Origin: an uncultured Acetobacteraceae bacterium
Lineage (GTDB): Bacteria; Pseudomonadota; Alphaproteobacteria; Acetobacterales; Acetobacteraceae
DNA length: 42,590 nucleotides
Assembly: GCA_937902425.1 (NCBI GenBank)
Contig: CALFNB010000265.1
Span: 1-42,590, forward strand
Direction of reading: 5' to 3'
In this document: piece after piece, positions 12,996 to 27,567 of the stretch
Position numbering within the stretch: position 1 is the stretch's first letter
Layout of the letters: every line of letters begins with the position of its first letter
Notes under the pieces: generated by a model
What the model saw: the letters and a program-made list of their open reading frames with translations, nothing else
What the model was told of the DNA's origin: nothing
Database searches by the model: none
Position numbers and translations under genes: made by a program

Positions 12996-13028
12996 GTGGA
13001 AGGTCCCCGGTTTTGGTGATCCGGCAGA

Positions 13029-13907
13029 TTAGCCACGATCCCCGTGTGGCGGAAAGGGTTCGGATGCCTGCAAGGCGGCGGCGATGACCGGCGCGGCGGC
13101 GATCGACATCCCATGTCCGTCATGGCCGACATCCGGCACATCGATCACGGTCCACGCGCAATGGGAGCCCAGGGATTCCGCCGTCGCCTGTCCGAGACGG
13201 ACGTAGTTGTGCGCGCGGTGATATCGCGTCTCACCCTGGCGCATCGATCGAGGGCCCTTGGGAAAATACCGGCCGCTGGTCTTGGTATCGTTCGTGCCCG
13301 CCATGACGGTGATCGGGAACGCCAGCAGCGCCGCCAGCGATCCCGGCGTTACCTCAGTCTCGCCGAGGCCGAACGGCCAGGGCACGGTCAGGTCCGGCAT
13401 CGCATAAGTCCCGGCATTGGCGCTGACCGCCGCCGCGACCCGGTCGCGAAAGCCGAACGACAGCATGCGATGCACGAACTGCCCGCCGGCCGAGTGACCG
13501 AATACCCCATACCGTTCACGGTCGGTCACGCCGGCCTCGCGCAGTGCATCAAACAGGCGTGGAACGATCCCGTAGGTCCATTTCTCCCGCGGGTTTGGCG
13601 TCCCGTCCTCATTATGCAGATTGCCGAAATGATAGCGCAGATAATCGGGAAACGATTCTTCCGGGAACTCGATCGCGATGGCCAGCAGGTTGTGTTCCTC
13701 GGCCAGCGGCAGCCAGTAATCGCGATAGGCCGCGCCATTGCGGCCGACGCCGTGATGCACGAACAGCACCGGCGTTCGCGGCGTGTATTGCCGCGGCCGC
13801 GCGGTGTGCAGATACAGCGTTTGCTCCGGAAACGCGGAGTCGTGCCAGACCAGGGAATTGGCGCCGGGGAGGGCGACCAGCTCCCGCGGGTCTGGCGACT
13901 GGTTCAA
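13029..13907 (-). CDS. Alpha/beta hydrolase (serine esterase type)
   Basis: A 292-residue alpha/beta hydrolase with nucleophile elbow GHSAGG at residues 137-142 (Ser139), an oxyanion-region HHGVGRNGAAYRDYW near 51-65, and a likely catalytic Asp in AGTNDTKTSGR and His in DVGHDGHG. The pattern recalls poly(3-hydroxybutyrate) depolymerase or feruloyl-esterase-like proteins. The start is a TTG at 13907 overlapping the coxM stop as TTGA, since no ATG exists near the N-terminus. This couples it to the coxSLM operon, so it may release or process the substrate or product of that molybdenum enzyme. There is no signal peptide. Confidence 0.8.
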   Translation of the reverse strand: MNQSPDPRELVALPGANSLVWHDSAFPEQTLYLHTARPRQYTPRTPVLFVHHGVGRNGAAYRDYWLPLAEEHNLLAIAIEFPEESFPDYLRYHFGNLHNEDGTPNPREKWTYGIVPRLFDALREAGVTDRERYGVFGHSAGGQFVHRMLSFGFRDRVAAAVSANAGTYAMPDLTVPWPFGLGETEVTPGSLAALLAFPITVMAGTNDTKTSGRYFPKGPRSMRQGETRYHRAHNYVRLGQATAESLGSHCAWTVIDVPDVGHDGHGMSIAAAPVIAAALQASEPFPPHGDRG

Positions 13908-14698
13908 CCCGCTTTGGCCACCGCCCGTCCGGCGATCACGCCGACCAGGTGGGCACGATATTCCGAACTGGCATGGATATCGCCGTTCAGATCATTCGGC
14001 GGCGTCTTGATCCCTTTGATCGCGGCGGCGGAGAAATTGCCGGTCAGCGCCTTCTCCATCTCGGCATGACGGAATACGCCGCCCTGGCCCGCGCCGGTCA
14101 CCGCGACCCGTGCGCCGCCCGCCGTCCGCGCCACGAACACGCCGACGATCGCGTAACGCGAGGCCGGATTGCGGAACTTCTCATAAGCGGCCTTGGCCGG
14201 AACCGGGAATTCCACCGCCGTGATGATCTCACCTTGTTCCAAAGCGGTGGAGAACATACCGGTGAAGAAATCATCTGCCTTGATCGAGCGGCGATCCGTT
14301 ACGATCGTCGCGCCCAGAGCCAGCGCGGCGGCCGGATAGTCGGCGGCCGGATCATTGTTGGCGATGCTGCCGCCGATCGTGCCGCGATGGCGCACGGCGT
14401 CATCGCCGATCATCCCCGCGAGCGCGGCCAGGGCCGGTATCGCGCTCTTGACCTCGGCGCTGTTGGCCACCGTCATATGTGTGGTCATCGCACCGATCTT
14501 CACCACGCCGCCGGCGACGCTGATCCCCTTCATGCCCAAACCGGACAGGTCGACCACCGTCGAGGGCTTCGCCAGGCGTTGTTTCAATACCGGAATGTAA
14601 GTCATTCCGCCCGCCAGAGCCTTCGCGTCACCGTCAGCGCCCAGAGCCTTTACCGCGTCAGCGAGGCTACCGGGTTTTTGATATGCGAAATCGTACAT
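13904..14698 (-). CDS. coxM: FAD-binding medium subunit of a molybdenum hydroxylase (CoxM family)
   Basis: A 264-residue FAD subunit that passes electrons from the iron-sulfur subunit to the acceptor. It shows the two FAD motifs of the family: AGGMTYIPVLKQRL near residues 34-47 and GTIGGSIANNDPAADYPAA near 105-125. The C-terminal CO_deh_flav_C-like part follows. The gene starts with AGGGAA upstream and lies 24 bases after coxL. Gene order is coxS-coxL-coxM, with a hydrolase overlapping its stop. The family name CoxM is by homology and does not mean CO oxidation. Confidence 0.9.
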   Translation of the reverse strand: MYDFAYQKPGSLADAVKALGADGDAKALAGGMTYIPVLKQRLAKPSTVVDLSGLGMKGISVAGGVVKIGAMTTHMTVANSAEVKSAIPALAALAGMIGDDAVRHRGTIGGSIANNDPAADYPAAALALGATIVTDRRSIKADDFFTGMFSTALEQGEIITAVEFPVPAKAAYEKFRNPASRYAIVGVFVARTAGGARVAVTGAGQGGVFRHAEMEKALTGNFSAAAIKGIKTPPNDLNGDIHASSEYRAHLVGVIAGRAVAKAG

Positions 14699-14722
14699 CG
14701 TAGGTTCCCTTTCGCCGCCGCC

Positions 14723-17104
14723 TCAGTCCGCCGCCATTTTCGACGGACCGGCGTTGATGATCGACCAAATTTTCCCGCTCGTCGCGGGCATGTTCATGTG
14801 GCGCACGCCGTAGTCCTTCAACGCATCGCAGATCGCGTTGATGACCGCGGGCGGTGAGCCGATCGCGCCGACCTCGCCACAGCCCTTCGACCCGAGCGGA
14901 TTGTGCGTGCACATGGTATTTTCGGTCGCGACATGAATGTTCGGCAGGTTGTCCGCGCGCGGCATCGTGTAGTCCATCATCGAGCCGGAGATCAGTTGTC
15001 CCGACTCGTCATAAATCGCGGCTTCCAACAGCGCCTGACCGATCCCCTGAGCGATGCCGCCCTGCACCTGTCCCTCGACGATCATCGGGTTGATCACGCG
15101 GCCCACATCGTCGACCGCGGTGAAGTTCACCACGGCCACCGTTCCGGTGTCGGGATCGATCTCCACCTCGCTGATGTGGCAACCGCCGGGGAAGGTGAAG
15201 TTCTTCGGGTCGTAGAACGCGGTTTCGTCCAGGCCCGGCTCCAGCTCATCGATCGGATAGTTGTGCGGAACATAGGCGGTCAGAGAAATGTCCGTCAGCG
15301 TCTTCGATTTATCGGTGCCGGCGACGGTGAAGGTGTTGTTGGCGAACTCGATGTCCTCGACCGAGGCTTCCATCAGATGCGCGGCGATCTTCTTGCCTTT
15401 GGCGATGATTTTGTCCATCGCCTTGACCATCGCCGAACCGCCAACCGCGAGACTGCGGCTGCCATAAGTGCCCATGCCGAATGGAATTTTCGCGGTGTCG
15501 CCATGCACGACGTCGATCTGATCGAGCGGCACCCCGAGCTGATCGACCACAAGTTGCGCGAAGGTCGTTTCGTGGCCCTGACCGTGGCTGTGCGAGCCGG
15601 TGAACACGGTCACGCTGCCCGTCGGATGCACGCGGATATTGGCGACCTCGTACAGCCCGGCGCGGGCACCGAGCGAGCCGGCCACCGCCGATGGCGCGAT
15701 GCCGCAGGCCTCCAGGTAAGTCGAAATGCCAATCCCACGCAGCTTGCCGCGCGCCTTGGCCGCCGTGCGCCGCGCCTCGAACCCGGCCCAATCGGCGTTC
15801 TTCAACGCGACGGCGAGCGTGGTCTGGTAGTCGCCGCTGTCGTATTGCAGCGCCACCGGAGTCTGATACGGAAACGCATCGGCCGGGATGAAGTTGCGCC
15901 TGCGGATATCCACGCGATCGATGCCGGTGTCATACGCGACCGCGTCCACGAGGCGTTCCAGCAGGAACGTCGCCTCCGGACGGCCCGCGCCGCGATAGGC
16001 GTCGACCGGCACGGTGTTGGTGAACACCGCCTTGACCTCGCAATAAATCACCGGGGTCTTGTACGTGCCGGCCAGCAGGGTGGCGTAGAGATACGTCGGC
16101 ACGCAGGGCGCGAATGTCGACAGATACGCACCCATGTTGGCCTGGGTTGATACCCGCAACCCGAGGAATGTGCCTTGCGCGTCGATCGCCATCTCCGCCG
16201 TGCTGACATGGTCGCGGCCATGTGCGTCGGACATGAAGCTTTCGGTGCGCTCCGCCGTCCACTTGACCGGCCGGCGCACTTTGGCGGACGCCCATGTCAC
16301 GATGGCTTCTTCGGCGTAGTGGTAGATTTTTGAACCGAAGCCGCCACCGACGTCCGGCGCGACCACGCGGAGTTTGTTCTCCGGAATGTGCAACACGAAC
16401 GCACCCATCAGCAGCCGGATCACGTGTGGGTTCTGGCTGGTGGTGTACAGCGTGTATTCGCCGGAGTTGACGTCGTAATCGCCGACCGCGGCGCGCGGCT
16501 CCATCGCGTTGGGGATCAGCCGGTTGTTGGTCAGATCCAAACGCACGACTTTGTGCGCGTTGGCGAACACGCCATCGACGATCGCCTTGTCGCCGATGTG
16601 CCAGTCGTAACAAATGTTCCCCGGCACATCGTCGTGCACGGTCGCGGCGCCGGGCGCCAGCGCGGCCGCCAGGCTCGCGGCGGCGGGCAGGTCGGTGTAG
16701 TCGATGGCCACCAGTTCGGCCGCGTCCTTCGCCTGCTGTTTGGTCTCGGCGATGACCACCGCGATCGGATCGCCGACGTGGCGCACCTTGCCGACCGCGA
16801 TCACCGGATGCGGCGGCTCCGCCATCGGGGAGCCGTCCTTGTTGTGAATTTGCCAGCCGCACGGCAGGCCACCGATGTTCTCCGCCGCGATATCGGCGCC
16901 GGTGAAAACCGCGACCACGCCGGGCGCTTTCGACGCCGCCGCGGTGTCGATGCTGTTGATCTTCGCGTGCGGCCGGTCCGACCGTTTCACATAAGCATGC
17001 AACTGGCCGGGACGATTGATGTCGTCGGTATAATTGCCGCGGCCGTTGAGGAAGCGCGCGTCTTCCTTGCGGCGAACGGATGCACCGATGCCTTCGAAGG
17101 CCAT
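14723..17104 (-). CDS. coxL: Molybdopterin-binding large subunit of a xanthine-dehydrogenase-family enzyme (form II CoxL)
   Basis: A 793-residue catalytic subunit binding the molybdopterin cytosine dinucleotide cofactor. The active-site loop reads AYRGAGR at residues 369-375, which is the form II signature; the true CO dehydrogenase loop AYRCSFR with the copper-binding Cys is absent. GGGFGSK (253-259) and [14 protein letters not shown] are cofactor-binding patterns, and Glu744 in GCGEVGAIG is the catalytic glutamate. It has no signal peptide, so it is cytoplasmic. The ribosome site GGGAG lies before the ATG. Form II enzymes oxidise diverse aldehydes, purines or N-heterocycles; the substrate is unknown. 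Confidence 0.93.
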
Positions 17105-17128
17105 GGCGTTATCTCCCTGATCTGGCGA

Positions 17129-17608
17129 TTACGCTTTGCCGTGCATCAACGGATGCGCGGCCGCGATCGCTTTAACAATGTTATGATAACCGGTGCAGCG
17201 GCAGAGATTGCCTTCCAGGCCGTCACGGATTTCCTGCTCCGTTATGCCGCCGGGATGATTGTTCACCAGGTCGATCGCCGACATCACCATGCCCGGCGTG
17301 CAGAAGCCGCATTGCAGGGCGTGATGCTCCCGGAACATTTCCTGCATCGGGTGCAGCGTGCCATCCGGCTTCGCCAGGCCCTCGATGGTGGTGACGCTGG
17401 TGCCCGCCGCCTGCACGGCAAGCATCGTGCACGACTTGGCGGAGATGCCGTCGACATGCACCACACAGGCGCCGCACTGCGACGTGTCGCAACCGACATG
17501 GGTTCCGGTCAGCGCCAGTTTCTCTCGTAACACTTCCACCAGCAGGGTGCGGTTTTCCACCTCCACCGTATGCTGCTTTCCGTTTACCGTCAGGGTGACC
17601 TGAGGCAT
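17129..17608 (-). CDS. coxS: 2Fe-2S small subunit of a molybdenum hydroxylase (CoxS family)
   Basis: A 159-residue subunit with two [2Fe-2S] clusters. The plant-ferredoxin-type cluster uses Cys40, 45, 48 and 60 ([11 protein letters not shown]), and the second cluster uses Cys100, 103, 136 and 138 (CGFCTPGM and LCRCTGY). It relays electrons from the molybdenum centre in CoxL to FAD in CoxM. A GGGAGG ribosome site precedes the ATG. It starts 82 bases after the stop of soxA on the same strand, so it could be co-transcribed with the sox-type operon or have its own promoter; none is obvious. Confidence 0.94.
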
Positions 17609-17690: not shown

Positions 17691-18431
17691 TCACGGCCGG
17701 ACGGCGGGTGTCTCGACCCGCATCCCGTTGGCGCGCACCGCCAGGAACAGCGCCAGCACCGCGGCCTCCCGCGAGTCCGGCGAAAATGGCTCGGCCCGGA
17801 CACCAACCATGCAGTTTCGCAATCTGCGGTAGAGCGATCCCAATCCTTGCCACTCCAGGCGGTATTCCGGGTAGCCGTTGGGGTGGCCTTGCGGGATGAC
17901 GCTGCCGCCCAGTGATTCGCCGGCGCGTTCCTCGTGGCATTGCGCGCAGGACAGATTGAGTTGACCCATGCGCTCGCGAAACAACGCGGCCCCCTCGGAC
18001 AGGAACGGCTCGCGCGGTTCAACCGCCAGTGGCATGCCGCGCGACTGCAAGCCGACCAGTGCGGACAGGCTGAGCAACCGGTCATCGTCCCAGGCGAGCG
18101 CGGGTGCACCCATGTGGTCGGTGCGGCATAAGTTGATGCGCTGCTCCATCGTCACGAGGCGGCCGCGTTGCGGATCGAACGCGGGATAGCGCGTGGCGGC
18201 GCCGCGCAGGGTCGTGACATCACCGTGGCAGGTCGCGCAGGACTTTCCCGTGGTGCCGGCTGGCTCGGACCACAGTGCCTCACCTTGCTGCACCCAAAGG
18301 AACGCCGGATTGGCGGCATCGTCATCCTGCATCGCGCGCGTATCCGGACTGGCATCGTCGTAACCGGACCGTCGATCGCTCGCGCCGATCAGCAGCAGCG
18401 CGGCGACGGCGAGCGCGGGAAGCCGGTTCAT
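17691..18431 (-). CDS. soxA: Sulfur-oxidation diheme cytochrome SoxA
   Basis: A 246-residue periplasmic diheme cytochrome c. A signal peptide covers about residues 1-17. Heme motifs are CATCH (65-69) and CAQCH (162-166). The family cysteines that ligate the hemes are present: Cys102 in RINLCR and Cys207 in RNCMVGVRAE, the second being the active-site Cys that becomes a persulfide in SoxXA. With SoxX it oxidatively conjugates a sulfur compound (thiosulfate in the classical pathway) to the SoxY cysteine. The ATG overlaps the soxZ stop (ATGA). All catalytic residues are kept, so the loading step is probably functional. It is the last gene of this overlapping chain. Confidence 0.93.
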   Translation of the reverse strand: MNRLPALAVAALLLIGASDRRSGYDDASPDTRAMQDDDAANPAFLWVQQGEALWSEPAGTTGKSCATCHGDVTTLRGAATRYPAFDPQRGRLVTMEQRINLCRTDHMGAPALAWDDDRLLSLSALVGLQSRGMPLAVEPREPFLSEGAALFRERMGQLNLSCAQCHEERAGESLGGSVIPQGHPNGYPEYRLEWQGLGSLYRRLRNCMVGVRAEPFSPDSREAAVLALFLAVRANGMRVETPAVRP

Positions 18432-18748
18432 GTCACGGTGATCGCCACGAGTTCGGTCTGGGTCACGCCGTGGTCGTCGGTGAACGTCAGTGCCAATGTC
18501 CCGCTTTTCTCCGCCACGACACTGAACGACAGGAACGGATTGGCGGCGATCGCCGGAAAGAAGTCGGCATCGAGCACCGTCTCGCCATCCAGCGTGCAGA
18601 TGAAATGGTTGATGATGTCGCGCGGAATCGCCTGGCCGAGCTGATCGCGCCGTTGCCCGCTTTCCATCGGATGCGAGATCAGCACTTTCACGTCGAACGG
18701 CGCATTGGCGGCGATTTGCTTCGGAACGTTCACCAGGACACGGACCAC
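18428..18748 (-). CDS. soxZ: Sulfur-oxidation carrier subunit SoxZ
   Basis: A 106-residue immunoglobulin-fold protein that pairs with SoxY to form the carrier complex. Family patterns are VKVLISHPMESGQRRDQLGQ near residues 19-38, PRDIINHFICTLDG and LTFTDDHGVTQTE. It has no signal peptide, as usual, and is exported with SoxY. The start is a GTG at 18748, three bases after the soxY stop. Its stop overlaps the soxA start. Confidence 0.93.
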   Translation of the reverse strand: MVRVLVNVPKQIAANAPFDVKVLISHPMESGQRRDQLGQAIPRDIINHFICTLDGETVLDADFFPAIAANPFLSFSVVAEKSGTLALTFTDDHGVTQTELVAITVT

Positions 18749-18751
18749 GCG

Positions 18752-19180
18752 TCAGGCCTGGTCGATACAGGCGGCGAGTGTGACCAGCAGATCGATGCTG
18801 TCCCGCCAGCACGTGCCGTCCCGCAGCTTCGCGATCGCTATCACGGTCTGTGACGTCGCCAGCCGCATCCGCGTCGTCACCCGCGGCGCACCCGACCTGG
18901 GCCCGAAACGAAATACCGCCACAAGCGGCAACGGATTGCCCTCGGCGAACACATGGATCGCCTCAACGGGGGAGGGCGGATCGGCCACCGACACCGTCAT
19001 CGCCACCGAGTTGCCGTTCTCCACCATCACCGGCAGATCGAGGTGGATCAGCCCGTCCTTCAGCGGCGCGTCCCCGACCAAAACCTGGATCAGCGCGGCG
19101 ACGTCGGCCGGTGTCGCGACCGCGGGCGACACCGCGCAACAGGCGGCGAGCAAGACCAGCCGCCGGCGTGGCAGGATCAT
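18752..19180 (-). CDS. soxY: SoxY-related carrier protein with AACID arm instead of GGCGG
   Basis: A 142-residue SoxY homologue. It opens with a basic stretch and hydrophobic signal (ILPRRRLVLLAACCAVSPAVA), which suggests export, probably by Tat. The body has the SoxY pattern DGLIHLDLPVMVENGNSV and a beta domain ending in TSQTVIAIAKLRDGT. Classical SoxY ends in a flexible GGCGG arm whose Cys carries the sulfur intermediate. Here the end is VTLAACIDQA, with the only arm Cys at 138. I recall an NCBI family named SoxY-related AACIE arm protein; AACID matches it closely. The other reading frames do not encode GGCGG, so this is not a frameshift. The ATG overlaps the soxX stop. Confidence 0.88.
   Translation of the reverse strand: MILPRRRLVLLAACCAVSPAVATPADVAALIQVLVGDAPLKDGLIHLDLPVMVENGNSVAMTVSVADPPSPVEAIHVFAEGNPLPLVAVFRFGPRSGAPRVTTRMRLATSQTVIAIAKLRDGTCWRDSIDLLVTLAACIDQA
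18755..18775 (-). other. Variant swinging arm AACIDQA of the SoxY homologue
   Basis: The last seven codons encode A-A-C-I-D-Q-A. The Cys is kept but the four flanking glycines are replaced by bulkier residues including Ile and an acidic Asp. This should change the flexibility of the arm and its fit into partner enzymes. Confidence 0.85.
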
Positions 19181-19548
19181 TTCGCGTGCAGAGTGGACAG
19201 GAACGCGGCCACGTCCTCGATCTGCGGCGGTGTCAAAATCGGTCGGCCTCGCCATGCGGATCCCACGCGATTGAGCTTTTCGACATTACCATAAGCCGGC
19301 ATCACCGTGTCAGGATCAAAGCGGGAAGGATCCAGAAGCCGCTCCCGGATTTCGTCTGGTGTCAGCCTGTCGCCAACACCGTCCAGCCGCGGCCCAATGT
19401 TACCCTGCAGATACGGCGCGGGAAATGGTCCGGAATGACAGAGCAGGCAGGCACTCAAGGCCCGGTTCTCGATGATCTTGGCTCCATTCACCGCATCAGC
19501 GGCCTGTGCCGTATCGGCGATCAGAATCGCCAGCAATGCCGCCTTCAC
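19177..19548 (-). CDS. soxX: Sulfur-oxidation monoheme cytochrome SoxX
   Basis: A 123-residue monoheme cytochrome c, partner of SoxA. The signal peptide is KAALLAILIADTAQA. The heme motif is CLLCH (34-38) and the axial Met is Met83 in DTVMPAYGNV. The segments GNIGPRLDGVGDRL and RVGSAWRGRPILTPPQIEDVAAFLSTL are typical of SoxX. The start is a GTG at 19548 that overlaps the stop of the flavoprotein gene (GTGA); the longer open frame to 19803 lies inside that gene. It receives the electrons from SoxA turnover. Confidence 0.92.
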   Translation of the reverse strand: MKAALLAILIADTAQAADAVNGAKIIENRALSACLLCHSGPFPAPYLQGNIGPRLDGVGDRLTPDEIRERLLDPSRFDPDTVMPAYGNVEKLNRVGSAWRGRPILTPPQIEDVAAFLSTLHAK

Positions 19549-20792
19549 CCAAACACTTCCGCTGTGATCGTCGCAAACCATCGATCGCCGTATTGTGCCT
19601 CCTGCATCCGTTGCGAGTCCGGCGCGTCGAGCGGGCTGGTGCCACCGGCGCCCTCGATATCCGTGAGCACCCCGTTCACCGGTCGATACACCCCAGCGAC
19701 CGAGAACCCATAATCCGGCGCGGCCAGACTGTAGCACGTATTGATCAACCGCGGCTCCTGAGGTTTCTCGCCACGCAGCAACGCCGCCACCGCCGCCGCG
19801 CAAACCTTTCCCTGGGCATTCGCGGCAAAGGCGGATTTCGGCATGGCGCCGGCGATGGCCGCGTCGCCGATCACGTGAATGCCGGGGACCAGGCGCGACT
19901 CAAAGGTGACCGGATCAATCGGACACCATCCGGAACGATCCGCCACGCCCGCCGTGGCGGCGATCGCTCCCGCGCGCTGCGGCGGCACGACGATCCCGAC
20001 ATCCGCGGGATGCGAACCAAAGTCTGTTTCGAACGTTCGGGTCGCGGGATCGACACGGGTCACATTGCCGCCGTCGGACAGCGAAACCCATTCCAGCGTA
20101 TCCGGGTAGAGCCGCTTCCAGGCATTCTGAAACAGCTTTTGTTTCGAAAAGACATCCTTCGCGTCGAGCACCAGAATTTTCGACTTTGGCTTGTGTGTTT
20201 TCAGGTACCAGGCGATCAGGCTGGCGCGCTCATACGGTCCGGGCGGGCATCGATACGGGTTGGGTGGCACCGACATGACGACCACACCGCCGTCCGGCAT
20301 CTCCCGCAACTGCTGACGCAGCAACAAGGTTTGCTCACCGGCTTTCCAGGCGTGCGGCATTTTCGACGCGGCGGCCTCATCATAACCGGGGAGGCCACCC
20401 CAGACGATGTCGATCCCAGGCGACACGATCAAACGGTCATAAGACAACGACGCACCGTTGCTCGCCGATACGGTGCGCGCGGCGGGATCGACCGACATCG
20501 CGATGGCGCGCACCAGATTGATGCCGTCCGATCGTACCGCGTCATAGCCGAACCGTTGCGCGGCCAGCTCGCGCTCGCCCGCGACAACCATGTTGCTGAA
20601 CGGGCAGGCGATGAACGTGTGATTGGGTTCGAGCAACGTGACGTCCAGCGTCGGGTCGTATTGACGCAGGAACCGCGCCGCCGTGGCCCCGCCGAAGCCG
20701 CCGCCAACCACGACCACCCGTGCTTTTGTCTGGCCTTTCGCCACGAAGGGGATCGCCAGACCGCCGGCCAGAACGTGTCGCCGCCGGATCAT
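19545..20792 (-). CDS. FccB-type flavoprotein (sulfide dehydrogenase / SoxF-like)
   Basis: A 415-residue FAD flavoprotein. The N-terminus IRRRHVLAGGLAIPFVA looks like a twin-arginine signal. The FAD motif VVVVGGGFGGATAARFL is near residues 26-42. The family redox cysteines are visible in YRCPPGPYERA and in the C-terminal flavin-binding domain, NTCYSLAAPDYGFSVAGVY. Such proteins oxidise sulfide, or in the SoxF case reactivate the Sox carrier, and donate electrons to a partner cytochrome c; the small cytochrome gene just upstream overlaps its start (ATGA). Alternative role: sulfide:quinone-like reductase, but the paired cytochrome argues against it. Confidence 0.9.
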   Translation of the reverse strand: MIRRRHVLAGGLAIPFVAKGQTKARVVVVGGGFGGATAARFLRQYDPTLDVTLLEPNHTFIACPFSNMVVAGERELAAQRFGYDAVRSDGINLVRAIAMSVDPAARTVSASNGASLSYDRLIVSPGIDIVWGGLPGYDEAAASKMPHAWKAGEQTLLLRQQLREMPDGGVVVMSVPPNPYRCPPGPYERASLIAWYLKTHKPKSKILVLDAKDVFSKQKLFQNAWKRLYPDTLEWVSLSDGGNVTRVDPATRTFETDFGSHPADVGIVVPPQRAGAIAATAGVADRSGWCPIDPVTFESRLVPGIHVIGDAAIAGAMPKSAFAANAQGKVCAAAVAALLRGEKPQEPRLINTCYSLAAPDYGFSVAGVYRPVNGVLTDIEGAGGTSPLDAPDSQRMQEAQYGDRWFATITAEVFG

Positions 20793-21040
20793 TTCTGGGC
20801 CGCCCACCAAGCAGAGATCGCGCCGAGTTCGTCGGCGTCGAAGCCTTTGGCGATCCGGCCCATCACGGTCGATGGTTGCGCACCCGAGCGGAACGCGATC
20901 AGTGCTTCGGTCATCTGCTTCGCGTCGTGTCCCGCGATCGGCGAGGCCGATCCATGACAGCCTGAGCAGGAGGATGCTCCCGGCGGCGGCGCGGCGGCCG
21001 CCAGAAGCATCACCAGCCCGAGGCCGGCTTCGACCCTCAT
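20789..21040 (-). CDS. Small c-type cytochrome (FccA-like)
   Basis: An 83-residue monoheme cytochrome with a signal peptide (about 1-23, ending near PPPGASS) and heme motif CSGCH close to the mature N-terminus. The segment PSTVMGRIAKGF supplies a likely axial Met. It resembles the cytochrome subunit of flavocytochrome c sulfide dehydrogenase, fitting the FccB-like gene that follows. It could equally take electrons from the IorAB-type enzyme encoded upstream, whose homologues often use c-type cytochromes. Start and stop overlap both neighbours (ATGA). Confidence 0.85.
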   Translation of the reverse strand: MRVEAGLGLVMLLAAAAPPPGASSCSGCHGSASPIAGHDAKQMTEALIAFRSGAQPSTVMGRIAKGFDADELGAISAWWAAQK

Positions 21041-23199
21041 GCGGCGCGGAGATCCGCCGGGCTCAGCGGCAAGGCGCGGATCCGTTTGCCGGTCGCGGCG
21101 AAGATCGCATTCAACACCGCCGGTCCGGCGACCGCGATCGTTGGCTCTCCGACACCACCCCAGAAACCGCCTGACGGAACCAGGACCGATTCGACCTTTG
21201 GCATATCGGCGAGGCGCATCACCTGATTGTCGTTGAAGTTGCTTTGCTCAACGCGACCTTTGTCGATCGTGATCTTGCTGAACAGCACCGAACTCAGGCC
21301 GAAGACGAAGGAGCCTTCAATCTGTCCGGCGACCTGATCCGGATTGACGACATGGCCCGGGTCCGACGCGCACACGATCCGGTGAATTTTCAACTCGCCC
21401 TTCGTCGATACCGAGACTTCCGCCACCGCCGCCGTGTAGGAGCCAAATCCGCCGTTTTGCGCGATGCCGCGGTAGACACCTTTTGGCAGTGGTGTTCCCC
21501 AGCTGGCGCGCTCGGCCACCGCGTTCAGCACGGCGAGATGCTTCGGATTCTTCGTCATCAGCGAGCGGCGGAATTCCAGCGGATCCTGCTTCGCCGCATG
21601 CGCCACCTCGTCGATGAAACACTCCATATAGAGTGCGTTCTGGTTGGTATTGACGCCGCGCCAGAACCCGACCGGCACATGCGTGTTGCGAACCGCGTGG
21701 TCGATCAGCAGGTTCGGGATCGCCATGTAGCCGAATTCTTCCGGCGTCCAGCCCTGGAACGCGACACGATCGACGCCGTTTTCCATCCGCTGCGGTGCCA
21801 GGTAAGCCAGGATCGACTGCCCGGAAATTCGCGCGTGCAGTCCTGTGACATTGCCTTGTGCGTCCAGCCCGGCGGTCAGCTTGCATTGCGTGATCGGGCG
21901 ATAGAAGCCGTGTTGCATGTCCTCCTCGCGGCTCCAGATCAGCTGGACCGGCCGGCCGGGGATCTGTTTCGCGATCAAAACCGCCTGGCGCACGTAGTCC
22001 TGCTGACCACGCCGGCCGAAGCCGCCGCCCAGATGATGCTTGTGGACGATGACGGCGTCGAGCCTGACACCGGCCGCCTCCGCCGCCGCGGCGAGCGAGG
22101 CATCGCCATTCTGACTACCCACCCAGATCTCGATCTTGCCGTCGTCCCATTTCGCCGTGCAGTTCATCGGCTCCAGCGTGGCGTGATTCTGGTATTGCGT
22201 ACCGTAAACCGCCTCGACCTTGCTCGCCGCGCCGGCCAGTGCGGCGTCGATATCGCCGTGCCGCTGGCCAAGCGCCGCTTCCTTGGCGTCCAGGCCGGTT
22301 TTCAGCAATTCATCGATCTGCTTGCTGTTGACCGTGGCGTTCGGACCCTCGTCCCAGACGATCGGCAGCGCGGCCAGCGCGGTCTTCGCGAGGAACCATT
22401 TGTCGGCCACCACGGCGACGGTGCTGTCATCGACCTGCACCACCTTTTGCACGCCCTTCATCGCGCTGACCTTGCTGGCGTCGAACGACTTCAACTTGCC
22501 GCCGAACACCGGGCATTGCGCGATGGCGGCACTCAACATGTTCGGCAGTCGCACGTCGATCGCGAATACCGTCTTGCCCGACAGCTTATCCGGCGTGTCG
22601 AGCCGTTTCACGCCGCGGCCAATCAGTGTCCATTCGGCGGGCGTTTTGACCTTCACGTCGGTGGGCGGCGTCAACTTCGCCGCCTCGGCCGCGATCTCCC
22701 CGTAGCGCAGCCGTTTTCCGGTGGGCTTGTGGGTAATGACGCTCATGGCGGCGGAACATTCGCCAGCCGGAACGCCCCATTGTTTCGCGGCCGCCTCGAT
22801 CAGCATCGCCCGCCCGACGGCACCGCCTTTGCGGACATAGTCGACCGAGGCGCGGATACCGCGGCTGCCACCCGTGGACATATCGCCCCAGGCGCGCTTG
22901 TTCGCGAGGTTGACCTCGGGCGCGACATATTCCGCTTTCACGAAACGCCAGTCGGCGTCGAGTTCATCGGCCACCAACTGCGCGAGCCCGGTCAACGTGC
23001 CCTGTCCCATTTCCGATCGGGCGATGCGGATGATTGTTGTGTCATCGGGTTGGATGACCGCCCATATGCCCAGTTCGGCACCGTTGGCGGATTGGGCGGC
23101 GGCTTTCGGGATGGACCAGCCGAGGGACAGACCGCCTCCGACGGCCGCGACGGAGGTCAGAAAGGAACGGCGGCCAAGCTGGATGGTGTGGTTCATCAT
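21037..23199 (-). CDS. Molybdopterin-binding subunit, isoquinoline 1-oxidoreductase (IorB) type, Tat-exported
   Basis: A 720-residue xanthine-dehydrogenase-family catalytic subunit. The twin-arginine signal LGRRSFLTSVAAVGGGLSL at residues 8-26 sends it to the periplasm. Cofactor-binding patterns are HHLGGGFGRRGQQDYVRQA and GFWRGVNTNQNALYMECF, and the catalytic Glu is near 685 in GGVGEPTIAVAGPA. Members hydroxylate N-heterocycles or oxidise aldehydes using water. The start has ATGATG behind GAGGAGG; the second ATG (23196) has slightly better spacing. It overlaps the cytochrome gene (ATGA) and lies in one chain with soxXYZA, which is unusual for an IorB-type enzyme. Confidence 0.9.
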   Translation of the reverse strand: MMNHTIQLGRRSFLTSVAAVGGGLSLGWSIPKAAAQSANGAELGIWAVIQPDDTTIIRIARSEMGQGTLTGLAQLVADELDADWRFVKAEYVAPEVNLANKRAWGDMSTGGSRGIRASVDYVRKGGAVGRAMLIEAAAKQWGVPAGECSAAMSVITHKPTGKRLRYGEIAAEAAKLTPPTDVKVKTPAEWTLIGRGVKRLDTPDKLSGKTVFAIDVRLPNMLSAAIAQCPVFGGKLKSFDASKVSAMKGVQKVVQVDDSTVAVVADKWFLAKTALAALPIVWDEGPNATVNSKQIDELLKTGLDAKEAALGQRHGDIDAALAGAASKVEAVYGTQYQNHATLEPMNCTAKWDDGKIEIWVGSQNGDASLAAAAEAAGVRLDAVIVHKHHLGGGFGRRGQQDYVRQAVLIAKQIPGRPVQLIWSREEDMQHGFYRPITQCKLTAGLDAQGNVTGLHARISGQSILAYLAPQRMENGVDRVAFQGWTPEEFGYMAIPNLLIDHAVRNTHVPVGFWRGVNTNQNALYMECFIDEVAHAAKQDPLEFRRSLMTKNPKHLAVLNAVAERASWGTPLPKGVYRGIAQNGGFGSYTAAVAEVSVSTKGELKIHRIVCASDPGHVVNPDQVAGQIEGSFVFGLSSVLFSKITIDKGRVEQSNFNDNQVMRLADMPKVESVLVPSGGFWGGVGEPTIAVAGPAVLNAIFAATGKRIRALPLSPADLRAA

Positions 23200-23206
23200 G
23201 GCCTCC

Positions 23207-23686
23207 TCACGCTTTGCCGTTGGCGGGTGAAGCGACGGTCAACGCGGCGGCGGTATCGATCGCCGCCTTGATGCGCTGATACGTCCCGCATCGACAGATA
23301 TTCGAGATCACCTGCGCGACGTCGGCCTCGGTCGGATTTGGTTTCTCGTGCAACAATGCGGCGGCGGCCATGATCTGACCGGACTGGCAATACCCGCATT
23401 GCGGCACTTCATGCTGCAACCACGCGGCTTGCACCGGGTGACTGAGGCCGTCGGCGGACAGCCCCTCGATCGTGACGATCTTCGCGGCGGTGACCGAGCC
23501 GGCCGCGATCGAACAGGACCGCCGCACCACGCCGTCGATATGCACTGAACAGGCGCCGCATTCGGCGATGCCGCAGCCATACTTCGTGCCGGTCAGGCCG
23601 ACCCACTCGCGTATCACCCACAGCAGGGGGGTATCGGGATCCGCGTCAACCTCATGGATTTCGCCATTGATATCGAGTTTCAGCAT
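23207..23686 (-). CDS. 2Fe-2S subunit, isoquinoline 1-oxidoreductase (IorA) type
   Basis: A 159-residue two-cluster iron-sulfur subunit. Cluster ligands are Cys38, 43, 46 and 58 (YGCGIAECGAC) and Cys97, 100, 131 and 133 (CGYCQSGQ and ICRCGTY). The CGYCQSGQ form is typical of the IorA group, which partners Tat-exported IorB-type subunits. It has no signal peptide and would be exported with IorB. A clear AAGGAG site lies 8 bases before the ATG. It is the first gene of the overlapping chain ending in soxA, 7 bases before iorB. Confidence 0.93.
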   Translation of the reverse strand: MLKLDINGEIHEVDADPDTPLLWVIREWVGLTGTKYGCGIAECGACSVHIDGVVRRSCSIAAGSVTAAKIVTIEGLSADGLSHPVQAAWLQHEVPQCGYCQSGQIMAAAALLHEKPNPTEADVAQVISNICRCGTYQRIKAAIDTAAALTVASPANGKA

Positions 23687-23752: not shown

Positions 23753-24634
23753 TCAGTAAGGTTTATCGCCGGCCACCGTTACCCGGAAGCCGGAGCGTGT
23801 GTGCGGCCAGTAGTCCCACATCGCGCGGTGCTGCACGCAGCGATTGTCCCAAAAGGCGACCGAATTGGGTTGCCAGCGGAACCGGCACTGGAACAGCGGA
23901 TTCTCCGCGTGTTCGTAAAGATACCCCAGGATCGCGGCGCTCTCATCGCGAGGCACGCCAACCAGCCGCTTCGTGAAGCCGCGGTTGACGTAGAGTGCCT
24001 TTTTCTCGGTCACTGGATGCGTCCGGATCACCGGATGTTCCGCGCTTGGATACACCGGTTTGTCTTCGATGCCGAGGTTCTTGTAAGTGCCGCGATACGC
24101 GTCCTCACCGTCATGGATCGCGGTGAGGCCTTCCAGATAGGCCTTCATGCGATCCGACAGCGCCTCATAGGCCGCGTACATGCTGGCGAACAGCGTGTCG
24201 CCGCCTTTGGGAGGGGTCTGTTTGATATACAGGATGCTGCCCATCGGCGGTTCCGTGTCGCAGGAAACGTCGCTGTGCCAGCCTTCACCATTCGCACGCG
24301 GGCTGGTCTTGTCCGCGTGAATGATCATCAGTTCCTCGTGGCCAGGCGCGTGCGGCGCCGCCGGGTGGATGTGCAGTTCGCCAAAGTTTCGGCCGAACGC
24401 CAGATGCTGTTCCTGGGTCAGATGCTGATCGCGGAAGAAGATGACGCAATTCTCCGCCAGCGCCCGGTGGATTTCGTCCATCTGACGGTTGGACAACGGC
24501 TGCGCCAGATTGGCACCGCTGATCTCCGCTCCGATGATCGGCGTGTATTTATCGACATCGATGGTTTCGTACGGCGCCGACTCATCGGCCATGTGCCGGT
24601 ACCGAGGCCCATTATTGCCGCGCAAAGAGGTCAT
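23753..24634 (-). CDS. TauD/TfdA-family Fe(II)/2-oxoglutarate dioxygenase
   Basis: A 293-residue dioxygenase. The iron ligands are His120 and Asp122 in GWHSDVS and His269 in RCVQHRA; the 2-oxoglutarate-binding Arg is in HTRSGFRV (280 or 284). The pattern PPMGSILYIKQTPPKGGDTLFASMYAAYEALS is typical of TauD and related enzymes. TauD releases sulfite from taurine; relatives act on alkylsulfates, phenoxyacetates and others, so the substrate is open. The ATG at 24634 overlaps the aminotransferase stop (ATGA); an internal ATG at 24592 has no ribosome site. It lies directly upstream of the sox-type chain on the same strand. Confidence 0.92.
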   Translation of the reverse strand: MTSLRGNNGPRYRHMADESAPYETIDVDKYTPIIGAEISGANLAQPLSNRQMDEIHRALAENCVIFFRDQHLTQEQHLAFGRNFGELHIHPAAPHAPGHEELMIIHADKTSPRANGEGWHSDVSCDTEPPMGSILYIKQTPPKGGDTLFASMYAAYEALSDRMKAYLEGLTAIHDGEDAYRGTYKNLGIEDKPVYPSAEHPVIRTHPVTEKKALYVNRGFTKRLVGVPRDESAAILGYLYEHAENPLFQCRFRWQPNSVAFWDNRCVQHRAMWDYWPHTRSGFRVTVAGDKPY

Positions 24635-25854
24635 CGCCGCACATTCCCACCGCGAACCGGAATCCCAGTCTGCTCATAGCACACCTGGGCCAGCGCCGCG
24701 ACACCGTCTCGGATGGTCTGCTTGCTCGGCATGGCGAAGCACAGACGCAGATGCGAAGTGGAGTTATCCGGACTGACCGCCCATGCCGGACCCTCGTTGA
24801 AGATGATACCGGCCGCCGCGGCGGGCTTCAGCAATGTCCGCACATCCACTGACTCCGGCAGCTTGATCCAAAGGAAGATGCCGCCTTTCGGATGCCAGCA
24901 TTCGGCGGAGGCGCCGAATTCACGTTCCACCGCCTCGACCATGGTCTGCAACTTATCATGCAACACGCCGTTCAAATGGTTCAGATGCTTTTCAAAGTTT
25001 TTCGAAAAGTATTCCGCCACGATCATCTGGTCGAGCGCCCCGGTGCCGCTGTCGCCCTTCAACGGCAGCAGCCGCCGCATGATCTCCCACTCCGCGACGA
25101 TGTAGCCAAGCCGCAGTGCCGGGGCCAAAGATTTGGAGAACGACCCAAGATGGATCACGCAGCCCGGATCGAGCGCGTACAGCGCGGGCGGCGCCTCGAC
25201 GCCTTCCCACAGCAGGTCGGCGTAACACTCGTCCTCGAAGATCGCGACGTTGTATTCGCGCGCAAGCTTAAGCAGCGCGTGCCGGCGATCCAAGGGCAGG
25301 ATGGTCGCGGTCGGATTCTGGATGGTCGGGATCGTGTAGATGAACTTTGGCGTGATGCCGCGGGCCTTCAGCGCCGCCAGTTGCGCCGCCAGCGCGTCGA
25401 TGACGATCCCGTCGCCATCCAGTTTCATCGCCTCGATTTTGGCTCCGATCTTGCGGAACCGGTTGAGCGCGCCTTGGTAGCAAAATTCCTCGCACAGCAC
25501 GGTATCGCCGGGATTGATCAAAAGCTTGCTGATCATGTCCAGGCCTTGGCCCGAGCCGGTGACGATCGTCACGTCGCCGATCGGCACATCCATGCCGCGG
25601 ACCCGCTTGCAGCGATCGGCGACGAATTGCCGCAGTCCCGGATAACCCTGCGGCCCCAGCCCGAGGTTATAGATCGCCAGTTTCGATCCCTCGCGGCGCA
25701 GCACCGAGGCGGCGGCCTCGACCAGGCCTTCGATCGGGACTTGCTCGGGGTCATTGTTGCCGCCGACGAAGTAATACGGCGGGAACGGGGCCCAACGCGG
25801 GGCCGGGTCCGGCAGTCCATCGCTGTACAGCTTGGCATAATCGATCGATGTCAT
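24631..25854 (-). CDS. PLP-dependent aminotransferase, class I/II
   Basis: A 407-residue fold-type I aminotransferase. The PLP Lys is Lys241 in GSFSKSLAPALRLGY; NPT at 180-182 and DECY at 208-211 are cofactor contacts. It resembles the 2-aminoadipate/valine-pyruvate aminotransferases related to MocR enzyme domains, but lacks an N-terminal HTH. It transfers an amino group to 2-oxoglutarate or pyruvate. Its overlap with the TauD-family gene suggests that the two act on one compound, for example an amino-sulfonate, but that is inference. Confidence 0.88.
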   Translation of the reverse strand: MTSIDYAKLYSDGLPDPAPRWAPFPPYYFVGGNNDPEQVPIEGLVEAAASVLRREGSKLAIYNLGLGPQGYPGLRQFVADRCKRVRGMDVPIGDVTIVTGSGQGLDMISKLLINPGDTVLCEEFCYQGALNRFRKIGAKIEAMKLDGDGIVIDALAAQLAALKARGITPKFIYTIPTIQNPTATILPLDRRHALLKLAREYNVAIFEDECYADLLWEGVEAPPALYALDPGCVIHLGSFSKSLAPALRLGYIVAEWEIMRRLLPLKGDSGTGALDQMIVAEYFSKNFEKHLNHLNGVLHDKLQTMVEAVEREFGASAECWHPKGGIFLWIKLPESVDVRTLLKPAAAAGIIFNEGPAWAVSPDNSTSHLRLCFAMPSKQTIRDGVAALAQVCYEQTGIPVRGGNVRR

Positions 25855-25975: not shown

Positions 25976-26269
25976 TCATCGCAAACTGTTGACGATCTGG
26001 CGGTAGGCTTCCTCGGGGAACGCCTTCAGCGACTGGGTGCGCACATTGCCTTGTTTCCCCAGCATCAAGGTGAACCGCGCGGCGACCGCGTCATCCGGCG
26101 CCTCATAGGTGATGACCATGTCGTGAATCCCCATGGTCATGTAGACGGACATGAACTTTCCGCCCATGTCCTCCAGCGATTTGCGTGCGATGTCAACGCG
26201 TTTCGGCCCGTCCTCGATCGTGCGCACGCCCTGATCGGTCCAGTTCGCCAGCATGACATAGGTTGGCAT
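25976..26269 (-). CDS. GYD-domain protein
   Basis: A 97-residue protein of the GYD family (dimeric alpha/beta ferredoxin-like barrel). It shows the pattern PTYVMLANWTDQGVRTIED at the start, KSLEDMGGKFMSVYMTMGIHD in the middle and ARFTLMLGKQGNVRTQSLKAF near the end. The function of the family is unknown. A GGAAGGAAG site precedes the ATG. It is divergent from the LVIVD protein, with 74 bases between; this gap holds a TATACT at 26295-26300 but no matching -35. The 120 bases after its stop hold nothing recognisable. Confidence 0.85.
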   Translation of the reverse strand: MPTYVMLANWTDQGVRTIEDGPKRVDIARKSLEDMGGKFMSVYMTMGIHDMVITYEAPDDAVAARFTLMLGKQGNVRTQSLKAFPEEAYRQIVNSLR

Positions 26270-26343
26270 GGTCGCTTCCTTCCCAGAAGGACACTATACT
26301 GTGCCTCAGGAACCGGATCGGCAAGCAGGGGGAGGCAAGCGTG

Positions 26344-27567
26344 ATGCACCACGAGGGCGCGCGGAACATTGAATTCGTCGGCCATACCGATCAGGGCGGC
26401 CGAGGCGACGGCATCCAGGTGATGGTCGCGCGCGGCCACGCCTATATCGGCACGCGGGTCAGCCGCGGCGTGATGGTGACCGATGTGCGAGACCCGCGAA
26501 ACCCAAAACCAGTGAATTTCGTGCCGACGCATCCGAACTCGGTGTGCATGCATCTTCAGGCCGCCGAGGACCTGCTGCTGCACATTCAGGAGGCCGATCA
26601 GCGCGCATTGTTGTCGGCGCAGGAGTATTACGGTGGCTCCACCAAAGTAGACAGCAGCCGCTTCGGCAAACGTGGCGAGGACTACGCCGCGGGCCTGATT
26701 GTCTATGACATCGCCGACCCGGCCAACCCACGCAAGATCGGCTTCATGGAGGTGGAAGGTCTTGGCCTGCACCGTATCTGGTGGGTCGGTGGACGATACG
26801 CCTATGCCTCGGCGCTGCTCGACGGCTTCACCGATCATATCCTGATCGTCATCGACATGGCGGATCCGACCAAACCGGTCGAGTGCGGGCGCTGGTGGAT
26901 CCCCGGCCAGAACGCGGCCGCCGGCGAGACGCCGACATGGCAAGGCCGCTACGCTCTGCACCACGCGATCGTGGTTGACGACTTCGCCTATGGCTCATGG
27001 CGCGATGGCGGACTGACGATCCTGGACGTGAAGGACAAATCGGCGCCGAAGCTGATCGCGCACCGCACCTGGTGCCCGCCGTTCGGTGGCGGCACCCACA
27101 ACGCCGTGCCACTGCACGACCGCGACCTGCTGGTGGTGGCGGATGAAGCGACGTTGAACATCGACCAGCAGCAGATGAAGCGCACCTGGGTGTTCGACAT
27201 CCGCGAGAAGAGCAATCCGATCAGTATTTCAACGATGCCGACGCCGTCGGACCAGGATTATGTGAAGCTGGGTGGCCAGTTCGGCCCACATAACCTGCAC
27301 GAAAACCGGCCCGGATCGTTCCAGTCCTCCACCACGATCTTCGCGACCTGGCAGAGCGCGGGCGTGCGCGCGTTCGACATTACTGATCCGTTCCGGCCCG
27401 AGGAGATCGGCTATTTCGTCCCTTCGCAGCCCGCGAAATGGATGGAACCGATGCGGGGACGTACCAAAATGCGCCACACCTCCGATCTGTTCGTGGCCGC
27501 GGACGGGTTGATGTACATCACCGATTATGACGCGGGCCTCTATATCCTTCAGTGGAAGGGCGCCTGA
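26344..27567 (+). CDS. LVIVD-repeat (beta-propeller-like) protein
   Basis: A 407-residue protein with repeated segments such as GVMVTDVRDPRNPKPVNF, LIVYDIADPANPRKIGFM, LIVIDMADPTKPVECGRW and LTILDVKDKSAPKLIAH. These are LVIVD repeats that likely fold into a beta-propeller. There is no signal peptide. The ATG at 26344 has GGGGGAGG upstream; the frame is open to 26263. The function is unknown. It begins a tight plus-strand run of eight genes, ending in luciferase-like enzymes, so a role in the same catabolic pathway is plausible. Confidence 0.85.
   Translation: MHHEGARNIEFVGHTDQGGRGDGIQVMVARGHAYIGTRVSRGVMVTDVRDPRNPKPVNFVPTHPNSVCMHLQAAEDLLLHIQEADQRALLSAQEYYGGSTKVDSSRFGKRGEDYAAGLIVYDIADPANPRKIGFMEVEGLGLHRIWWVGGRYAYASALLDGFTDHILIVIDMADPTKPVECGRWWIPGQNAAAGETPTWQGRYALHHAIVVDDFAYGSWRDGGLTILDVKDKSAPKLIAHRTWCPPFGGGTHNAVPLHDRDLLVVADEATLNIDQQQMKRTWVFDIREKSNPISISTMPTPSDQDYVKLGGQFGPHNLHENRPGSFQSSTTIFATWQSAGVRAFDITDPFRPEEIGYFVPSQPAKWMEPMRGRTKMRHTSDLFVAADGLMYITDYDAGLYILQWKGA

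Follow-up and report, generated by a model that had tools for sequence, protein, structure and literature searches.

The gene cassette considered here lies in contig CALFNB010000265.1 of an uncultured Acetobacteraceae bacterium (the window; 42,590 nucleotides), one of 667 contigs of a 6.8-Mb assembly rated 89% complete. Its closest described relative is found in Starkeya novella, whose second sox cluster (soxX2Y2Z2A2F2 plus the xanthine-oxidase-family molybdenum enzyme Snov_1975/1976) likewise combines SoxAX, SoxYZ, a SoxF-like flavocytochrome c, and a molybdenum enzyme in one operon and lacks SoxB and SoxCD (PMC3797975, 2013); the order of the modules may differ, judged from gene numbers alone. 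According to the passages of that paper on the cluster, expression is very low on glucose, methanol, and thiosulfate, the SoxAX2 and SoxYZ2 proteins were undetected, one flavocytochrome subunit was detected at a low level except on glucose, and the molybdenum enzyme is said to come from a molybdoproteome study; the same passages do not discuss the SoxY arm, the SoxA site, or the distribution of the gene set. This was the sole description returned by literature searches for the gene set, and those searches found nothing on a function of the cassette, on how far it is conserved, or on the signature in its arm and its SoxA. The gene set is therefore not new in print, and the word "undescribed", which the preliminary description of this locus applied to the pathway, has to be withdrawn for the genes themselves. 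The consistent conservation of the cassette points to a periplasmic oxidation pathway that has yet to be worked out, not to a broken sulfur-oxidation operon.

In the window the cassette is an eight-gene chain on the minus strand (17691-23686), ordered IorA, IorB, cytochrome c, FccB, SoxX, SoxY, SoxZ, and SoxA; direct reading of the strand and matches to protein families bear out the genes and the order originally given. The junctions, too, read as first described: a 7-base gap separates IorA from IorB and a 3-base gap SoxY from SoxZ, and the remaining five are 4-base overlaps, ATGA at IorB/cytochrome, cytochrome/FccB, SoxX/SoxY, and SoxZ/SoxA, and GTGA at FccB/SoxX.

The Sox part of the chain consists of SoxX (19177-19548, with a GTG start inside the GTGA overlap with FccB), SoxY (18752-19180), SoxZ (18428-18748, also with a GTG start), and SoxA (17691-18431). 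Curated cut-offs are passed by SoxX (TIGR04485, 66 bits against 61, scored on 19177-19545), SoxZ (TIGR04490, 90 against 76), and SoxA (TIGR04484, 209 against 110). SoxY matches PF13501, and its best family is TIGR04487, "SoxY-related AACIE arm", at 148 bits (cut-off 172) versus 84 bits for the GGCGG-type TIGR04488; its C-terminus, AACIDQA, carries the carrier cysteine (codon 18767-18769) in an AAC-x-acidic arm, not in GGCGG. The cassette shares with classical Sox systems the SoxX, SoxY, SoxZ, and SoxA homologs and, within SoxXA and SoxYZ, the heme motifs (two CxxCH in SoxA), the SoxA Cys ligand (codon 17811-17813), and the carrier cysteine; it differs from them in lacking SoxB and SoxCD, in having an xAC arm, in an acidic residue at position C-14 of SoxA (counted from the Cys ligand), and in the addition of IorAB.

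The SoxA difference holds across the type. Comparison of 57 SoxA sequences from xAC-type loci with 39 from GGCG-type loci (three repeat copies, L021, L025, and L089, having been removed) finds the heme Cys ligand and the arginines at C-4 and C-16 invariant in both sets, whereas C-14 is Glu in 56 and Asp in one of the xAC set but Lys in 30, Ser in six, Asp in two, and Arg in one of the GGCG set. In a tree built by a quick method, with the three repeats included, the xAC-type SoxA sequences form one side of a branch with Shimodaira-Hasegawa-like approximate likelihood ratio (SH-aLRT) support of 99. The C-14 residue of the window, Glu193 (codon 17853-17855), aligns without gaps with Lys208 of 1h31_A (numbered by count) and corresponds, counting from the Cys ligand, to Arg109 of TsdA. 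As described in the relevant part of PMC4423706, TsdA Arg109 binds thiosulfate and its SoxA equivalent is Lys or Ser. Judged from sequence, both the SoxY arm and one thiosulfate-binding position of SoxA are changed in the cassette, and the altered C-14 suggests a different SoxA ligand. A Bradyrhizobium soxA mutant has been reported (PMC7324677), in a passage that does not show which SoxA is affected.

The distribution of the cassette is drawn from TIGR04487 profile surveys of two samples, 150 genomes from the window's family and 398 from the phylum, in which SoxY matches were listed at E 1e-3 and E 1e-20, respectively. In total 180 SoxY-family loci were read (L030-L069, L099-L118, and L178-L298 minus L238); eight further phylum places (L091-L098, all GGCGG) were each viewed as a 3.4-kb locus and stand outside this number. 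Absence of IorAB here means absence within the stretch examined (3-20 kb, some bounded by contig ends). An xAC-type (AACIE-like) arm is found at 49 of the 180 loci, and IorA or IorB lies within 9 kb at 42 of the 49, among which L053 was scored as linked despite a divergent IorA piece at the contig end and an odd arm. At the remaining seven the contig ends 336-2355 bases upstream of SoxY, and in five of those genomes another contig ends in a close IorAB (L151, L157-L160). At the 131 loci with other arms IorAB was never found. These comprise a first set of 71 (39 GGCG, among which 36 have SoxB; 25 GGC[LAVTN]; seven other) and a second of 60 (10 GGCG, seven with SoxB; 14 GGC[LAVTN]; 36 other, about 30 of which are ends of long chains unlike a single SoxY). 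SoxB is absent within 9 kb of SoxY at all 49 xAC loci, so that the predicted co-occurrence of AACIE-type SoxY with IorAB, SoxB being absent from the locus, is what the surveys return.

Within the family, xAC-arm SoxY occurs in 31 of the 150 genomes (the window's included), with IorAB adjoining in 24 and a contig end intervening in seven; 13 of the 150 have a TIGR04487 match above the cut-off. The phylum sample adds 19 genomes with xAC-arm SoxY, all with IorAB. All 41 co-directional cases keep the order IorA-IorB-[cytochrome-FccB]-SoxX-SoxY-SoxZ-SoxA: 19 are complete, in 11 the query found no cytochrome, in nine it found neither cytochrome nor FccB, and two end before SoxA. The fused unit that had been proposed from the window alone is thus real and conserved in several families of Pseudomonadota, its carriers being many soil and freshwater bacteria. 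Named carriers outside the surveys include plasmids of Methylobacterium sp. NMS14P and Neorhizobium galegae (with a PAC arm in the latter), and Burkholderiales contigs (Piscinibacter and Rubrivivax). A locus of an uncultured Rhodopila sp. (L162) shows the same genes. In Roseomonas marmotae the cytochrome and FccB-like genes sit downstream of SoxA, and in Piscinibacter (L165) SoxA is about 5 kb apart; the modules can thus be mobile relative to each other, yet are kept together. The set is co-inherited, as far as sequences alone can tell, and very probably forms one functional unit. Two details of individual cassettes may be added: L054 contains a tandem pair of IorB copies (11250-15593), and in L175 an annotated mddA gene (methanethiol S-methyltransferase, 19410-20144) lies roughly 8 kb away from the cassette of Methylobacterium.

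The molybdenum side of the cassette has the layout of a xanthine-oxidase-family hydroxylase: the IorA-like [2Fe-2S] subunit (23207-23686), which leads the conserved order, contains Fer2 and Fer2_2, and the IorB-like molybdopterin subunit (21037-23199), which begins with a twin-arginine (Tat)-like RRSFL, contains MoCoBD_1 and MoCoBD_2. The label IorAB is presumably that of isoquinoline 1-oxidoreductase and is used as a label only; no NCBIfam equivalog for IorAB-type subunits is matched at its cut-off in the window. The nearest solved structure to IorB is 8gy3_C, the large subunit of an aldehyde dehydrogenase that we take to be of the Gluconobacter type, to which it is related over its whole length (E 4.5e-82). 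Like 8gy3 and isoquinoline 1-oxidoreductase, the cassette enzyme pairs a large molybdenum subunit with a [2Fe-2S] subunit and has no gene for a flavin adenine dinucleotide (FAD) subunit beside them; unlike them, it has Sox and Fcc proteins as genetic partners. The hydroxylase glutamate, Glu685 (codon 21145-21147), is kept in all 60 aligned IorB sequences, 51 of them sox-linked and nine not shown to be, and the Tat-like RR is present in 59 of the 60.

The catalytic residues examined in IorB, SoxA, SoxX, and SoxY are kept, which bears on the suggestion, made for S. novella, that the cluster is a functionless, degenerate remnant of a Sox operon. The very low expression and the undetected SoxAX2 and SoxYZ2 proteins in that organism fit such a remnant (PMC3797975, in its passages on the cluster). 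Invariance of the examined residues in 57 of 57 SoxA and 60 of 60 IorB sequences, the conserved gene order, and retention of the cassette even in genomes of 1.7-2.1 Mb do not, and nor does the flavocytochrome subunit detected in S. novella; a remnant is accordingly a very improbable explanation.

SoxB and SoxCD appear to lie outside the set. In the window's own genome no SoxB match is found at E 1e-3 within the 89% of the genome that the assembly represents, and the best SoxC match scores 152 bits against a cut-off of 420. That the locus lacks SoxB and SoxCD, as noted at the outset, therefore stands for SoxB and for SoxC, while SoxD was not searched for; SoxCD belongs to the sulfite oxidase family, and the cassette has no SoxC-type molybdenum domain. 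SoxB occurs above the cut-off in 20 of the 150 family genomes. It gives no match at E 1e-3 in two carriers, G469 and G223, both rated 100% complete; together with its absence from the loci, this indicates that the cassette neither includes nor strictly requires SoxB.

The preliminary description suggested that IorAB might take the place of SoxCD; it would then oxidise sulfane sulfur held on SoxYZ. In favor, both are periplasmic molybdenum enzymes, and the Cys ligand and hemes of SoxXA are kept; the proposal is nevertheless weakly supported and rather unlikely, since no SoxB is encoded nearby to release the oxidised group, the thiosulfate position of SoxA is acidic, IorB is akin to an aldehyde dehydrogenase, and it keeps the carbon-hydroxylase glutamate throughout the 60 aligned copies. 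Low expression of the S. novella cluster on thiosulfate, as given in the portion of PMC3797975 that covers it, is a further point against SoxCD replacement and, by analogy, would speak against thiosulfate oxidation by the cassette in general.

Between IorAB and the Sox genes lie a small c-type cytochrome (20789-21040, heme motif CSGCH) and an FccB-like flavoprotein of flavocytochrome c sulfide dehydrogenase (19545-20792). The latter matches FCSD_central (160 bits) and FCSD-flav_bind (84 bits), has the FAD-linking and redox cysteines, and is nearest among solved structures to 5n1t_A (E 5.7e-145), its cysteines aligning with those of the solved chains. The cytochrome has no match in Pfam or NCBIfam, but its nearest solved chains are cytochrome subunits of flavocytochromes c (5n1t_B at E 1.6e-8, 3vrd_A, and 1fcd_C), the first of which was solved together with 5n1t_A. 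It thus most probably pairs with FccB as the FccA subunit, so that the separate small cytochrome to which electrons had been assigned, a gene that is indeed present, becomes part of an FccAB pair, and the module may be written IorAB, FccAB, SoxXA, and SoxYZ. Compared with FccAB/SoxEF flavocytochrome c sulfide dehydrogenases, FCSD domains, redox cysteines, and an FccA-like cytochrome are shared; embedding in the cassette sets this pair apart. FccB also accompanies another SoxYZ type, that with the GGC[LAVTN] arm: in the first set FccB lies in the stretch at 21 of 25 loci (L066, L068, L069, L178, L180-L183, L186, L187, L189, L211, L219-L221, L224, L225, L227, L233, L234, and L237) and SoxA at none of the 25, and FccB is found at nine of 14 further loci.

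The reading that we favor, with a probability of roughly 0.4, is that the cassette is a self-contained periplasmic system for the carrier-linked oxidation of a sulfur compound that has a carbon part. SoxXA is a cysteine-ligated cytochrome that forms S-S bonds; in the cassette its substrate would be not thiosulfate but another small sulfur compound, an organic thiol or sulfide, which it would attach to the cysteine of SoxY. IorAB would then oxidise the carbon part, as an aldehyde or at the carbon next to sulfur, while it is still carrier-bound or immediately after it has been released; the leftover sulfane sulfur would be oxidised by FccAB where it is present, and all electrons would pass to c-type cytochromes. 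In favor of this reading are the linkage of xAC-arm SoxY to IorAB in a fixed order, the lack of SoxB at these loci and of IorAB at the others, the acidic C-14 on a separate SoxA branch, the kinship of IorB with an aldehyde dehydrogenase, two genomes whose one MoCoBD_1 match is the cassette's IorB (G350 and G223), the run of molybdenum cofactor genes that follows SoxA in L113, and the very weak expression in S. novella, on thiosulfate as well. A stricter form, in which SoxXA tethers an organosulfur compound to SoxY, the xanthine-oxidase-family enzyme hydroxylates the bound carbon, and periplasmic C-S cleavage leaves a persulfide for FccAB, is possible but unlikely as a whole. A family with a comparable pairing is TIGR04557, by its name a SoxYZ-type carrier tied to a periplasmic carbon-oxidising quinoprotein dehydrogenase; it differs in that SoxY and SoxZ are separate chains here, with 57 and 49 bits against its cut-off of 140.

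Several observations weigh against the carrier-linked reading. No further conserved gene stands beside the cassette, clustering of the flanking frames having returned the cassette itself and common families. Several hosts encode SoxB elsewhere: it is above the cut-off, away from the cassette, in eight of 19 genomes or records (17 with the cassette and two Sinorhizobium plasmids with IorAB only; four are single plasmids, for which absence of SoxB means little). The acidic C-14 does not exclude thiosulfate, since two of the 39 GGCG-type SoxA sequences (the SoxB-linked L193 and L194, with a YRSDW motif) have Asp there. FccB was not found in nine of the 41 cassettes, and across 42 copies of it the cysteine motifs match exactly in just 33, 38, and 32. 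The authors of PMC3797975, in their comments on the S. novella cluster, suggest that it has no functional significance in that organism or is relevant under other conditions. Finally, some IorB homologs of about 60-72% identity have no sox genes in their vicinity, which means that a substrate held on a carrier is no requirement for IorAB.

These homologs, of a kind that the preliminary description had named as speaking against its proposal, exist at five loci. G109 (L149, 68%) and G020 (L150, 66%) have second IorB copies without sox genes nearby, L152 (72%) has an FccA-like cytochrome alongside IorB, and two Sinorhizobium plasmids (L173 and L176, 4991-11157; IorB about 60%) encode a response regulator, an ATP-binding kinase-like protein, a c-type cytochrome, IorA, and IorB. 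Regulators like those of the plasmids flank a full cassette in L031 and L174. The stretches around more distant IorB relatives (42-48%; L153-L156) likewise contain no sox genes. In an IorB tree of 64 rows, built by a quick method and with several forks open, the five sox-less rows fall within a clade of 60 rows whose other members are sox-linked or truncated at a contig end, and the Sinorhizobium pair stands next to L031 (support 99). Evidently IorAB can be retained alone; the position of the sox-less rows inside the sox-linked clade makes later loss or duplication the simpler reading of them.

IorAB may be co-regulated with FccAB and Sox but separate in action, oxidising an aldehyde or N-heterocycle while the others handle the sulfur that the shared parent compound yields, as sulfide or as another product, with no contact to the carrier. 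The Sinorhizobium arrangement, in which IorAB accompanies a c-type cytochrome and a two-component system, and the aldehyde dehydrogenase that is the nearest solved relative of IorB are what one would expect of such an enzyme. It is hard to square with linkage in every uncut case, the fixed order, the absence of IorAB from other SoxY loci, and a SoxY arm that differs exactly in the IorAB-linked set, and we regard separate action as unlikely, though as the likeliest alternative to carrier-linked oxidation.

Another possible link between the two halves of the cassette is the molybdenum site itself. In L113 and L115 the next gene past SoxA overlaps it by ATGA; in L113 this gene has a ModE domain match (66 bits, cut-off 98). 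After it come an XdhC-cytidylyltransferase fusion, whose 86 and 66-76 bits stay below the cut-offs, then moaA (361 bits, cut-off 284, the sole one passing) and a gene resembling moeA (277, cut-off 440), with further frames in between; L115 resembles L113 by its frame starts, with one extra frame. The XdhC-type factor in this run of molybdenum cofactor genes would suit a role of SoxYZ in supplying sulfur to IorAB: with persulfide made by SoxXA and FccAB, it would maintain or replace, in the periplasm, the sulfido ligand at the molybdenum site. Such a role would account for Sox parts without SoxB or SoxCD that follow a sulfido-molybdenum enzyme, yet it is improbable: XdhC-type sulfuration is cytoplasmic, four to six genes are a costly repair, and IorAB relatives without nearby sox genes exist.

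Annotated records label the cassette SoxZ, and once SoxY, as thiosulfate oxidation proteins. Should the cassette act on something other than thiosulfate, tallies of sox genes would exaggerate thiosulfate oxidation and overlook a different sulfur reaction, and if the tethering reading is true, a Sox-type carrier serves carbon-sulfur compounds instead of thiosulfate; the gene set has been seen before, but its tight linkage and the SoxA signature would surprise specialists. At E 1e-10, PF02738 (MoCoBD_1) has 15 matches in the window's genome, 20 in the same-genus genome G099, three in G469, and four in G526, and the single match in each of G350 and G223 (rated 100% complete) is the IorB of the cassette. 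Clean knock-outs are therefore possible in the latter two, which makes the role of Sox sets without SoxB testable.

The genes on either side of the cassette in the window are of more local interest. Upstream on the minus strand, a TauD-like dioxygenase gene (23753-24634; taurine dioxygenase model 290 bits, cut-off 313) overlaps by ATGA with a gene for a pyridoxal phosphate-dependent aminotransferase (24631-25854). Among the loci then compared, the same order beside the cassette is found elsewhere only in L163, with no overlap there, and the pair was not counted as part of the cassette; it is possibly a lineage-specific extension of the operon and gives a hint, no more, of organosulfur or amine substrates in this lineage. 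On the other side, a complete molybdenum hydroxylase set of the CoxS-CoxL-CoxM type (13904-17608, minus strand) starts 82 bases past SoxA, its best models being subunits of glyceraldehyde dehydrogenase, below the cut-off. This set was rejected as part of the cassette, the compared loci having no close counterpart and, in L036, just a CoxL relative (35%) at a distance of some 4 kb from SoxA. On the plus strand, 26263-27567 encodes an LVIVD-repeat protein with a very weak match to SBP56 (E 0.0027).

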